From NCBI GenBank assembly GCA_017416065.1, contig JAFQDM010000033.1:1-64000 (forward strand): 64,000 nucleotides of DNA, read 5' to 3'. The stretch comes from Ruminococcus sp. (lineage in GTDB: Bacteria; Bacillota; Clostridia; Oscillospirales; Acutalibacteraceae). The first letter of the stretch is position 1, and each line of letters starts with the position of its first letter. The notes below the pieces were generated by a model. The model searched no databases and was not told the DNA's origin. It worked only from the letters and a program-made list of their open reading frames with translations. A program made the translations under genes and the position numbers. Positions 13,867 to 63,059 of the stretch are shown here, in pieces.

Positions 13867-13904
13867 TGATTTTCACCTCCGTTAGAATTTGTAACGCAGT
13901 TCAT

Positions 13905-14090
13905 AAAAAAGGAAACCTCTTCCGTTTCAGGAAGAGGCGTTGTTTACATATAAGACGAAATAAGTCTTTGTAAATGCTTCTTCCTCGGCAGGCGGACGAA
14001 TGCTCGTCCATTATACGGAAAACCGAACCTGCTGTCTTTAGAACAGCGATTTATATATTCAGCGCAATGCGCTAAATAACCAATTAAAAG
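13905..14090 (-). ncRNA. L10 leader (ribosomal protein autoregulatory RNA) with attenuator
   Basis: The 238-base gap between rplA and rplJ holds several hairpins matching the L10-leader layout, including a conserved CCTGCCGAGG-type segment. It ends in an intrinsic terminator-like hairpin: an 8-bp stem at 13916-13923 / 13930-13937, followed on the minus strand by TTTCCTTTTTT. In Firmicutes, L10 (with L12) binds this leader and lowers rplJL transcription. Exact leader boundaries are estimates. Confidence 0.8.
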
Positions 14091-48343: not shown

Positions 48344-48371
48344 TTATTAACAACATCCCTTCTGCAAATTT

Positions 48372-48567
48372 AGCGTGTTATCCTTAACGGAGAACACGCT
48401 AAAACTAAGTTTGCCCTTTTGGGCAAGTGAAGTTTACTTTGTAAGTGAAGTTATCCTGAGGATAGTGAAGTTTCGCCTACGGCGAAGTGGGAAGACTTAA
48501 CTTCACTTGTGCGCAGCACAAAATTTACTGCATAGCAACTTCACTTTCGTGTAGCGAAAACTTCACT
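48372..48567 (+). repeat. Hairpin array A with AGTGAAGTT/AACTTCACT connectors
   Basis: After an 8-bp hairpin (48372-48400) comes AACTAAGTT (48403-48411), then four different mini-hairpins separated by AGTGAAGTT (at 48426, 48444 and 48464). A switch region leads into three more hairpins separated by AACTTCACT-type 9-mers (48499, 48521 degenerate, 48537, 48559). Stems are TTGCCC/GGGCAA, TTAC/GTAA, ATCCT/AGGAT, TCGCC/GGCGA, TGTGC/GCACA, GC/GC and TTTCG/CGAAA. The connectors of the two halves are complementary. The array lies in the sense direction behind the LRR gene. Confidence 0.85.
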
Positions 48568-60689: not shown

Positions 60690-61121
60690 TTATTCTGCAG
60701 ATGAGGCCGACGTTGTTTCTTCCAAAGGCTCAGTGCCTCTCATTGCCTCATACTGCTCCTCACTGAGCACCACCAAAGCAGAGCTGTCTGCAAGAGTAAG
60801 CACGGTGTAGCCCTTATCTGCAGTATATCCGCTGTCCTTATATTCCTCTGCTGTCAGATACAAAAGTCTGCCCTCTGAAGCCTGTGCATACCCTCTGCAC
60901 AGCTCCCTGGTCAGCTTTTCCTGATCCATATTGTGGAAGCTTTTTTCTCTCACAAAGCTGTCAACATCAGACAAAGTAGAGAAAAGTGCCTGCTTCTGCC
61001 CCAGGTCAGTCAGCTTTGCGTTCATAGATGCAGTTGCAATAACGTAAGCCAAAGAAAAGGCAATTGCCGCTGCAACAAGAGCAATGGTGATAACGATGGA
61101 AAGGGGAATTTTCTTTTTCAT
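60690..61121 (-). CDS. N-terminal-only relative of S41 C-terminal processing protease
   Basis: A 143-residue protein: a signal anchor (about 6-30) and then DVDSFVREKSFHNMDQEKLT and LCRGYAQASEGRLLYLTAEE (about 52-97). This matches the pre-PDZ segment of CtpA-type S41 proteases (usual form: I..LV...Y...D.E.L..G...G....YLT.EEY). The PDZ and catalytic domains are absent; an unrelated 45 residues and a Ser/Glu tail follow. Position after ftsX and M23 is where a full S41 gene is common in Clostridia. It is therefore a truncated derivative, possibly still expressed. Confidence 0.6.
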   Translation of the reverse strand: MKKKIPLSIVITIALVAAAIAFSLAYVIATASMNAKLTDLGQKQALFSTLSDVDSFVREKSFHNMDQEKLTRELCRGYAQASEGRLLYLTAEEYKDSGYTADKGYTVLTLADSSALVVLSEEQYEAMRGTEPLEETTSASSAE

Positions 61122-61144
61122 GGTGAGTTCTCCTCTCTGAACTT

Positions 61145-61258
61145 TAAGCTTGCCTTAAATAATCACTTGCGAAGCAAACTTCACTACGCAGCAACTTCAC
61201 TGCACATTGGGCAACTTCACTTGCCGCAGGCAAACTTAGTTGCTGATGCTTTGCATCA
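61145..61258 (-). repeat. Hairpin array B (half array) downstream of the four-helix-bundle gene
   Basis: Read on the minus strand from 61258: hairpin TGATGC-AAA-GCATCA, GC, AACTAAGTT, hairpin TGCC/GGCA, AGTGAAGTT, GCCCAATGTGC, AGTGAAGTT, a seven-base unit, AGTGAAGTT, hairpin TTGC/GCAA, GTGATT. The first 69 bases are identical to array C. It lacks the AACTTCACT half. The four-helix-bundle gene's TGA is the first codon of the opening hairpin. Confidence 0.88.
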
Positions 61259-61612
61259 ATTAAGGTTCTGCTTTGCAGTAGTGATTGATTTTACAAGCAT
61301 TCGTCTAATTACCCCCGAATCCTGCAGTAGTTTATTTGCACATTCTTCCGTAATGCAATTTGAACCAACGAGCATTTCTATCCAATACTCTGTTTCTATA
61401 CACTCTTTCAGGGCAATATGTAACTTATTTATAAAATCTGCTTTGCTTGAAGCATAACTTGCTTCATGAATGTTTGCACCTATCGATGTGGCACTACGTG
61501 TGATCTGATTTACAAGCACACCGCGACCCTTACGTGTATCAACACCATCACACACAGCAATAATTTTTAATGCTAATGCTTTAGCTCTTGTTCTCAACTC
61601 AGAGTCTTTCAT
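61256..61612 (-). CDS. Four-helix-bundle protein (23S rRNA-intervening-sequence/S23 family)
   Basis: A 118-residue helical protein. The segment RTRAKALALKIIAVCD, then QITRSATSIGANIHEASYAS and KLHIALKECIETEYWIEML is the signature of the S23/four-helix-bundle family (TIGR02436). Its first members were found encoded by stem-loop insertions in 23S rRNA; relatives include the Avd accessory protein of diversity-generating retroelements. Its biochemical role is unknown. ATG 61612 follows AAGGTG. No reverse transcriptase or rRNA is near. It sits exactly between hairpin arrays B and C. Confidence 0.9.
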   Translation of the reverse strand: MKDSELRTRAKALALKIIAVCDGVDTRKGRGVLVNQITRSATSIGANIHEASYASSKADFINKLHIALKECIETEYWIEMLVGSNCITEECANKLLQDSGVIRRMLVKSITTAKQNLN

Positions 61613-61631
61613 TCTAATCCACACCTTTTTT

Positions 61632-61838
61632 GGTGAAGTTACTCGCTTCGCTCATAGTGAAGTTGTTAGAATACTTTGTATTACTGTTTTCTAACAGTGA
61701 AGTTTTGTGCTTTGCACAAAGTGAAGTTAAGTTTGCCCTAAATCACTTGCGAAGCAAACTTCACTGCAAAGCAACTTCACTGCACATTGGGCAACTTCAC
61801 TTGCCGCAGGCAAACTTAGTTGCTGATGCTTTGCATCA
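61632..61838 (-). repeat. Hairpin array C (full array) upstream of the four-helix-bundle gene
   Basis: Read on the minus strand from 61838: hairpin TGATGC/GCATCA, AACTAAGTT, then hairpins joined by AGTGAAGTT (TGCC/GGCA; GCCCAATGTGC; GCTTTGC; TTGC/GCAA). After a switch (GTGATTTAGGGCAAACTT) come units joined by AACTTCACT (TTTGTGC/GCACAAA; GTTAGAA/TTCTAAC with a 17-base loop; a weak GAGCGAAGCGAG unit). It ends in ACTTCACC, 20 bases before the ATG of the four-helix-bundle gene. The same 4+3 layout is seen in array A, with different hairpins. Confidence 0.88.
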
Positions 61839-63059
61839 GCTGAGCTCCGTCATGGGGTCGTACTTAGAGCCGTAGTATCTGCACTCAAAGTGCAGGTGAG
61901 GACCTGTGGAGTAGCCCGTTGAGCCTGCGTAGCCAATGACCTGACCTGCTTCCACATAGGAGCCTGTTGACACCGTATGGTAAGAAAGGTGAGCGTATAT
62001 TGTAGCCTTTCCGCCGCCGTGGTCTATCCAAACGTAGTTGCCGAATCCTCCGCCGCAGCCGCAGCTGCCGTACTTGCCCCAGTTGTGGGTACAGGAGTTG
62101 CAGGTGTCAATAACGGTACCGGATGCCGCCGCAACAATGGTAGCGCCCATAAAGCCCGGGCCTGCAATGTCGATTCCACCGTGGTAATAGCCTGTTCTTT
62201 CCTCATAAAACTCTGAGGTACGTGTATAAAATCCGGGAGCAGGCCACACGTAGTTGCCTGTGTACTCAGGGGTATAGCTGTTGCCACCCTGGCTTCCCTG
62301 CTGCTGTTGCTGTTGCTGAAGTTCTTCCTGCTTTCTGAGCTCCTCGTAGTAAGCGTCTATCTTCTGGTCGATCTCAGACTGAGAGGATTCGTTGGAGTGC
62401 ACAAGGCTCTCCAGCTCTTCCTTCTCTCCGTAGAGAGCAGCCAAAGCTTCCTCATTCTCAGCAAGAAGCGTGTTAAGCTCTGCCTGCTTTTCTTCCAGCA
62501 AAGCCTTCTCTGCCTCAAGCTCCGCTTTGTCTTCTTCCAGCTCTGCAACTATCTCTTCTATCCCTTCAAGCTGGGAGTCAATATCTTTTATGAGCTTTTC
62601 ATCGTAATCAGCCATATATTCCACAAGCTGCATTTTATCTACATAATCGCCAAAGTCCTTGGCACCCAGAACTATCTCCAACGCGGAGGTATCTCCTGCT
62701 ATGTAAAGTGCGCGGATGCGCTGCCTGAGAAGGGCTATCAGCTCATCAACCTTGGCATTAAGCTCATTCTTCTGAGCCTCCTGCTCAAGTATCTGAGCAT
62801 CAAAGACCCCTATCTTCTCTCGGCTTACTGCGATCTGGCTGTTAACGTTTGCAACCTTGCTTGCGATGGTCTGCACGTATTCTTCCTGCTCTGCGATCTC
62901 GCCCTCTTTGTCTTTGATGATCGCCTCGTACTCCTGAGCCTCCTGCTCAAGCCTTTCCTGCTCTGCCTGGAGGTCGCTGAGGGTGTCTGCGTTTGCTGCA
63001 ACTACAGCACCCAGCACCATAACCACCGCCATAAGCGCAGATAAAATTCTTTTTTTCAT
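61836..63059 (-). CDS. Secreted coiled-coil M23 peptidase (EnvC-like)
   Basis: A 407-residue exported protein with a signal peptide (1-24) and two long coiled coils (about 25-110 and 155-245, rich in Glu/Gln/Leu). A poly-Gln linker leads to a C-terminal M23 domain with HGGIDIAGPG and HLHFECRYYG zinc motifs, plus a short Cys insert (CNSCTHNWGKYGSCGCGGGF). Such proteins are activated by FtsEX and split septal peptidoglycan. ftsX is 40 bases upstream, supporting that role. Its TGA stop lies in the first hairpin of array C. Confidence 0.92.
   Translation of the reverse strand: MKKRILSALMAVVMVLGAVVAANADTLSDLQAEQERLEQEAQEYEAIIKDKEGEIAEQEEYVQTIASKVANVNSQIAVSREKIGVFDAQILEQEAQKNELNAKVDELIALLRQRIRALYIAGDTSALEIVLGAKDFGDYVDKMQLVEYMADYDEKLIKDIDSQLEGIEEIVAELEEDKAELEAEKALLEEKQAELNTLLAENEEALAALYGEKEELESLVHSNESSQSEIDQKIDAYYEELRKQEELQQQQQQQGSQGGNSYTPEYTGNYVWPAPGFYTRTSEFYEERTGYYHGGIDIAGPGFMGATIVAAASGTVIDTCNSCTHNWGKYGSCGCGGGFGNYVWIDHGGGKATIYAHLSYHTVSTGSYVEAGQVIGYAGSTGYSTGPHLHFECRYYGSKYDPMTELS

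Follow-up and report, generated by a model that had tools for sequence, protein, structure and literature searches.

An S23-family gene with hairpin arrays at the end of an M23 peptidase gene: a probable mobile element or its remains

Results

The window, that is, the whole stretch of 64,000 nucleotides that was analysed, contains an S23-family gene together with a complete and a half array of small hairpins. Read along the minus strand, an M23 peptidase stop codon comes first, followed by hairpin 0, array C, the S23 gene, half array B and the start of a gene for a 143-aa protein. A further array without an S23 gene lies elsewhere in the window. The features were as follows:

61836..63059, minus strand: upstream host gene, M23 peptidase with a PcsB-type coiled coil (PF01551, PF24568)
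61822..61840, minus strand: hairpin 0 of array C, GCTGATGC aaa GCATCAGC, overlapping the M23 stop codon upstream with its 5′ arm
61633..61821, minus strand: array C, complete; AACTAAG end, three forward AGTGAAGTT connectors with hairpins, centre, four inverted connectors (AACTTCAC) with hairpins
61256..61612, minus strand: S23 (23S_rRNA_IVP) four-helix-bundle gene, 118 aa, ATG at 61612
61140..61258, minus strand: half array B, which directly repeats array C's left half together with hairpin 0 and ends near the array centre
60690..61121, minus strand: downstream host gene, 143-aa protein without Pfam match; adjoins the M23 gene in 17 other genomes with a gap of 12-122 nt
48369..48567, plus strand: array A, a solo array without S23 gene; hairpin 0, three forward and three inverted connectors
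13901-14059, minus strand: ribosomal protein L10 leader RNA (RF00557), 54.7 bits, ordinary

An S23-family gene of 118 residues between arrays B and C had been predicted from the sequence. Scored on a longer frame of 122 aa, it exceeded the curated cut-offs of both PF05635 (E 8.9e-24, 84.2 bits against 33.8) and TIGR02436 (E 8.5e-28, 96.8 bits against 24), which confirmed this assignment, and it has a solved relative, 2rld (E 1.3e-23), whose structure comprises five chains. The gene had also been placed inside an array; it stands instead behind a complete one. To our knowledge, S23/IVS proteins have no established function. The same genome holds a second S23 gene fragment (L032, G000:C31, 1300-1656), which by eye stands behind a tRNA and a hairpin array with the connector GTGATGCA.

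We counted the connector AGTGAAGTT 15 times in the window, where the expectation is 0.71, and none of 100 shuffles reached that count. The original prediction had described hairpin strings with unrelated stems, joined by a constant connector that changes in the second half, and a direct repeat between B and C. Read on the minus strand, which is the working strand, array C runs from 61821 to 61633 and fits the description of the connectors (three forward, four inverted), but B consists of the forward half only. The repeat is real: 98 nt of B (61161-61258) recur in C (61741-61838) at 97% identity and a distance of 580 nt, although B corresponds to no more than the forward, left half of C. The stems turned out to be homologous position by position among copies; they change and mostly still pair. 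Each array begins with an extra hairpin, here called hairpin 0, that the earlier inventory had left out, and in the window this hairpin takes in the M23 stop codon with some adjacent bases (8 bp).

Comparison with Rfam gave two matches at gathering score in the window, L10_leader and Gut-1. Gut-1 (RF01706, gathering score 50) matched array A at 48402-48476 with 53.7 bits (E 8.1e-08); arrays C (61753-61822, 35.0 bits) and B (61173-61242, 32.8 bits) scored below the gathering score. The Gut-1 alignment has, in its consensus, GUGAAAU connectors between three small hairpins. Among S23 loci from other genomes, Gut-1 was found at gathering score just upstream of S23 and on the same strand in all 13 GTGAAAT-class loci tested, and at one (L146) of seven loci of other classes. 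The original prediction had called the element possibly undescribed; for the arrays this does not fully apply, Rfam Gut-1 being the left half of one of them (A). According to the accessible text of Weinberg et al. 2010 (PMC2864571), Gut-1 was reported from human gut DNA only, was rated 'certainly' RNA and 'probably not' cis-regulatory, and was listed among RNAs unaffiliated with mRNAs, no function being named there. A literature search excluding supplements and most subscription journals returned PMC2864571 as the only paper with RF01706, and within the same scope no paper joining Gut-1 and S23 was found.

Array C folds with a z of -5.5 as RNA and -6.3 as DNA, and over 59 array loci the median z was -6.1 (from -14.5 to -1.8, 20 shuffles each), as expected of an inverted repeat. 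Among stems with a single defect, counted on the gene strand, G-T pairs numbered 127 and A-C pairs 84 (179 other), compared with 101 and 105 (452 other) in the control. This excess of G-T (Fisher p 0.024; 15 against 11 in the solo arrays of the window's genome) gives weak support to an RNA form of the array. When stem pairing was compared with swapped halves, a clear excess was seen for hairpin 3 only (3.0 vs 1.9 bp); the values for hairpin 2 differed weakly (2.3 vs 1.8), and hairpin 1 (5.4 vs 5.1 bp) is too conserved to judge.

The original prediction had proposed that filled and empty sites be compared in related genomes. We made these comparisons between species, with one genome per species, and the sites differed at two junctions. 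The 143-aa protein is present in 18 of 161 genus genomes, the window's own included, and the M23 gene is adjacent in 18 of 18. From the M23 stop codon to the 143-aa match the gap is 714 nt in the window vs 12-122 nt, with no connectors, in the other 17 of 17; in the nearest relative by the 143-aa protein (G103, 71%) the gap at the M23 junction is 14 nt. The other junction lies between two genes that we take to be pyrF and pyrE, the latter matching PF00156, and in the window's genome the solo array there begins at the stop codon. There were 54 matching genomes, from which 30 loci were fetched and 29 were assessable. The connector was absent from the 28 other assessable junctions, 20 of which had gaps of at most 77 nt and eight of which held 138-288 nt of other sequence (L254, L255, L264, L268, L270-L272, L276); the junction may be a hot spot. 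We prefer insertion to loss here on grounds of parsimony, the empty sites being those of other species.

Array copies are also found away from S23. In the window's genome we located 12 array sites, 11 without S23 and one with an S23 of the window's class, and four of the solo arrays have outer flanks in common by eye. Seven of the 161 genus genomes contain the connector pair (35, 18, 16, 7, 3, 1 and 1 matches), and a reversed control pattern gave single matches in two of the genomes. An S23 of at least 80% identity was found in two connector-pair genomes, G000 (the window's own) and G028; in G102, G103 and G105 arrays were present and an S23 of at least 80% identity was not found.

To score arrays across genomes we applied an automatic rule that requires one 6-mer to recur between hairpins in both orientations, over 420 nt upstream of S23 in a genus sample (60 genomes, 91 S23 matches) and over 450 nt in a genome_contigs scan. 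For the latter, ten S23 proteins from array-bearing loci served as queries and the best 80 of at least 574 confirmed relatives were kept, a sample that is biased towards the window's S23 clade because of the origin of the queries. A forward-then-inverted connector-hairpin array lay directly upstream of S23 in 59 of these best 80 of at least 574, vs 6 of 800 control stretches. The genus sample had an upstream array at 16 of 91 S23 genes, compared with 10 of 910 stretches taken at random from these loci and none of 455 shuffles, and further arrays near genus S23 genes, outside the count of 16, were visible by eye. The rule detected no array at the remaining 21 of the best 80 and at 75 of the 91 genus loci. 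The enrichment of S23 beside arrays, on which the original prediction had staked the association, was therefore found in both samples (59/80 vs 6/800; 16/91 vs 10/910).

The prediction had also considered the B/C direct repeat compatible with insertion or tandem gain of a unit of array and gene. Tandem gains do happen, as the B/C repeat and a nearly full second array at locus L150 indicate; the repeat itself is an optional, minority feature, present downstream of S23 in 14 of 162 scorable loci (counting both L054 and L184, which are one contig) and in 4 of 10 loci of the window's connector class. With 14 of 162 loci, a constant downstream direct repeat was rejected as an end of the element.

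Arrays favour the 3′ ends of tRNA and uracil-5-methyltransferase-type genes. A tRNA gene stood at most 600 nt upstream of S23 for 35 of 75 arrays (29 of 59 from the best 80 of at least 574 relatives and 6 of 16 from the genus), a pool with at least one duplicate because L184 and L054 are one contig; the control gave 9 of 684. At S23 loci with no detected array the figures were 2 of 21 (best 80 of at least 574) and 15 of 75 (genus). The tRNA genes were of many isotypes, including those before close S23 relatives. Directly upstream of the 75 arrays we found a tRNA in 27, a uracil-5-methyltransferase-type C-terminal motif in 13 (four of them in a frame of 2-41 codons only, and with L092 mis-scored as other) and something else in 35. 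In an independent count, restricted to frames of at least 150 codons at most 420 nt upstream, the motif occurred at 13 of the best 80 of at least 574 loci and at 1 of 91 genus loci, with a background of 0 of 1363, and two further motifs placed a methyltransferase-type gene upstream at 15 of the same best 80. Two of these upstream genes were confirmed as PF05958; they are presumably RlmD/TrmA. Three connector classes (GTGAAGT, ATGAATTG and CGATAT) share the methyltransferase-type target.

The junction with the host gene is marked by hairpin 0. In seven of ten loci of the window's class its 5′ arm is part of the final host codons, which the other arm repeats in inverted form and without mismatch over 18, 18, 14, 12, 10, 8 and 7 bp. 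The hosts of these codon-copying hairpins are methyltransferase-type genes, a response regulator (PF00072/PF00486) and a radical SAM gene (PF04055). The arm falls outside the host frame in the other three loci, the window among them. At one locus (L196) the array is present and hairpin 0 is absent.

We also considered that hairpin 0 might be a natural feature of the methyltransferase gene end. Thirty orthologs were fetched from the genus, 12 were dropped (motif not found) and 18 were scored. An inverted repeat of at least 7 bp on the terminal codons was present in three (L280, L304, L282) and not in 15, and this possibility was rejected. L280 is the L092 site, with its array; at L304 the repeat is followed by GCGATAT hairpins. 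Because two orthologs without the repeat (L288, L289) show array-like remnants by eye, the array does not always bring a terminal-codon repeat. L282 (G090) carries an 11-bp inverted copy of the methyltransferase terminal codons and no recognisable array, and its repeat is either a remnant or an unknown element.

Connectors vary by locus, and include AGTGAAGTT, GTGAAAT, GATGAAATC, ATGAAATA, ATGAATTG, GTGATATT and CGATAT, among others. We drew up 15 connector classes ourselves and placed them on a tree of 73 S23 proteins, a quick tree built from few columns, where they required 19 changes; the minimum is 14, the shuffled mean was 50.5 and none of 200 shuffles was as low. The S23 of the window falls in a set of ten rows, all GTGAAGT, and the class ATGAAATA is scattered, with six changes. 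Agreement of the connector with the S23 tree is also expected from co-inheritance alone. Because the connectors on both sides of an array change together, one factor, most likely S23, would appear to read them.

Another branch of S23 genes, at genus loci L033-L121, has no hairpins; tandem 7-mers lie upstream and identical 7-mers, inverted, downstream. Such bracketing was found for 31 of 83 genes paired with their own flanks (three of array type) vs 36 of 1660 mismatched pairings, and is also visible by eye on plasmids of Nostoc (L312) and Treponema saccharophilum (L313). S23 relatives occur on two faecal contigs labelled bacteriophage and in 25 plasmid records, which we did not count as evidence of transfer. 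The two faecal contigs deposited as bacteriophage (L310, MT835590.1; L311, MT835815.1) carry S23 genes with hairpin arrays upstream, one array unit standing behind an apparent tRNA. The accessible figure legend of a CRISPR survey (PMC10910872), where a panel deals with CRISPR adaptation modules, spells out '23S rRNA IVP' for that panel; we might guess that repeat arrays beside S23 are one reason for its appearance there.

Discussion

Several explanations of the arrays have to be weighed. Gut-1-type arrays could be structured leaders or non-coding RNAs that S23 binds for its own expression or for RNA processing, inherited mainly vertically and drifting between sites. The position of the array immediately 5′ of S23 on the same strand would suit such a role, as would folding better than shuffles (median z -6.1 over the 59 loci), the slight G-T excess on the gene strand and the rating of Gut-1 as 'certainly' RNA. 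Against this, the same source rates Gut-1 'probably not' cis-regulatory and unaffiliated with mRNAs (PMC2864571, accessible text), 11 of the 12 array sites of the window's genome have no S23, close relatives are preceded by a variety of tRNA genes, and filled and empty sites differ at two junctions; we hold a pure leader role to be unlikely. Local tandem duplication of terminators or hairpins, with S23 nearby by chance, would agree with the B/C repeat and with the second array of L150, but the similar unit at unrelated host genes speaks against it, and as a full explanation it is contradicted by the S23-array enrichment (59 of the best 80 of at least 574 vs 6 of 800); it seems to us scarcely credible.

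The arrays might alternatively be REP/BIME-like palindromes moved in trans by an IS200-type Y1 transposase, with S23 as a passenger. Their forward-then-inverted tagged hairpins resemble BIMEs, Y1_Tnp was present in five of five array-bearing genomes tested and in all seven genomes with the connector pair, and at one locus (L242, G028:C81, about 1351-1950) the automatic rule found a TGATAT-connector array just upstream of a Y1 gene, on a contig in which no S23 match was found. Yet Y1_Tnp occurs in 80 of 161 genus genomes anyway, and none of the five Y1 loci fetched had a GTGAAGTT array beside it, one having a lone GTGAAGTT about 1.6 kb away. Three of the five had no array at all by the rule and a fourth, L241, had a weak match only, more than 1.5 kb off. 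The arrays adjoin S23, not Y1, and their connector class goes with S23. We set Y1 aside as an improbable mover, which leaves the L242 array, of another connector class, unexplained.

For a mobile element it is a difficulty that no nuclease, recombinase or reverse transcriptase is encoded within it and that we noticed no fixed target-site duplication. PF00078 (RVT_1) had no match in G000, G028, G102 and G105, an absence that is not sure because these assemblies are 72-85% complete; a reverse transcriptase acting in trans was rejected, RVT_1 being found in one of five array-bearing genomes. No gene was common to many S23 loci except an upstream same-strand cluster at 17 of the best 80 of at least 574 and opposite-strand frames at 12 and 8 of them, and an accessory gene was also rejected.

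We consider it probable that array C, the S23 gene and half array B, set between two same-strand neighbour genes, together form an S23-encoded mobile element or what is left of one. A relative of the known S23 stem-loop insertions in intergenic DNA, as the original prediction had it, is supported by the filled and empty sites and by the S23 enrichment. The clade-specific connector, the occurrence of the unit at 3′ ends of many different tRNA and protein genes and the array-only copies within one genome also speak for the element. The S23 loci with no array by the rule, the genomes with arrays and no S23 of at least 80% identity, and the loci where hairpin 0 is not copied from the host speak against it. 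From these comparisons we infer that the unit of array and S23 is mobile; binding of the array connectors by S23 is probable, and the array may have a function as RNA.

The element could work as follows. A multimer of S23 would bind the repeated connectors, most likely in the transcript, because the array sits where the 5′ leader of S23 would be. The complex of S23 and array would carry a copy to a host gene's 3′ end, and the junction may be made by fold-back copying of the host strand; this would account for hairpin 0, since at several loci its second arm repeats the terminal host codons in inverted form. Copies consisting of the array only may be non-autonomous derivatives, or products of recombination between a pair of flanking arrays. 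The element itself does not encode an enzyme for the cutting and copying.

A wider reading is possible, which we offer tentatively and do not favour as strongly as the local one. S23/Gut-1 elements might be a widespread mobile class that carries no transposase, recombinase or reverse transcriptase, in which an S23 multimer reads clade-specific connectors in hairpin-array RNA (or single strand). Copies would arise where genes for tRNA or uracil-5-methyltransferases have their 3′ ends, and a fold-back step would write the terminal host codons into hairpin 0; 23S IVSs and S23 genes with inverted 7-mers would be branches of this class. Were this so, S23/Gut-1 elements would form a class of their own. 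If they are one system, two long-standing orphans, the S23 proteins and Gut-1, would be joined and could be tested at once, since the S23 of a clade should then bind that clade's connector and no other.

S23-bearing selfish insertions are already known. The accessible text of PMC4990558 describes in Coxiella an IVS with an S23 ORF in a stem-loop insertion, sporadic in distribution and called selfish or parasitic, and cites a 1993 proposal that the IVS ORF has a role in mobility. The unit here likewise joins an S23-family ORF to stem-loops, but it lies between the M23 and 143-aa genes, and because it is outside rRNA it is not a 23S IVS; it also differs in its place at gene 3′ ends, its string of hairpins linked by connectors and its many array-only copies. 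In diversity-generating retroelements the accessory protein Avd resembles PF05635 (PMC10053308, accessible text); no RVT_1 was found in the window's genome, whose assembly is 84.8% complete. The array-only copies, at several intergenic sites and with outer flanks shared by eye among four of those in the window's genome, resemble MITEs, although neither a matching transposase nor fixed terminal repeats were found for our arrays. REP/BIME palindromes are tagged hairpins in forward and inverted order, intergenic and multi-copy. The arrays described here share each of these traits, but differ from the REP/BIME-RAYT system in having S23 as partner and a tag that changes from one clade of S23 to another, and of the five Y1 loci the one with an array had another connector class. 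The Rfam model of Gut-1 covers the left half of the unit only, to which the unit adds an inverted second half and hairpin 0; compared with Gut-1 as described in the accessible text of PMC2864571, it has in addition many connector sequences and a tie to the S23 gene. The mobile-element classes compared here do not explain why connectors go with the S23 clade, why 3′ ends of tRNA and uracil-5-methyltransferase-type genes are preferred, or how a hairpin comes to copy host codons, and these features point to an unusual mode of DNA movement in gut bacteria.
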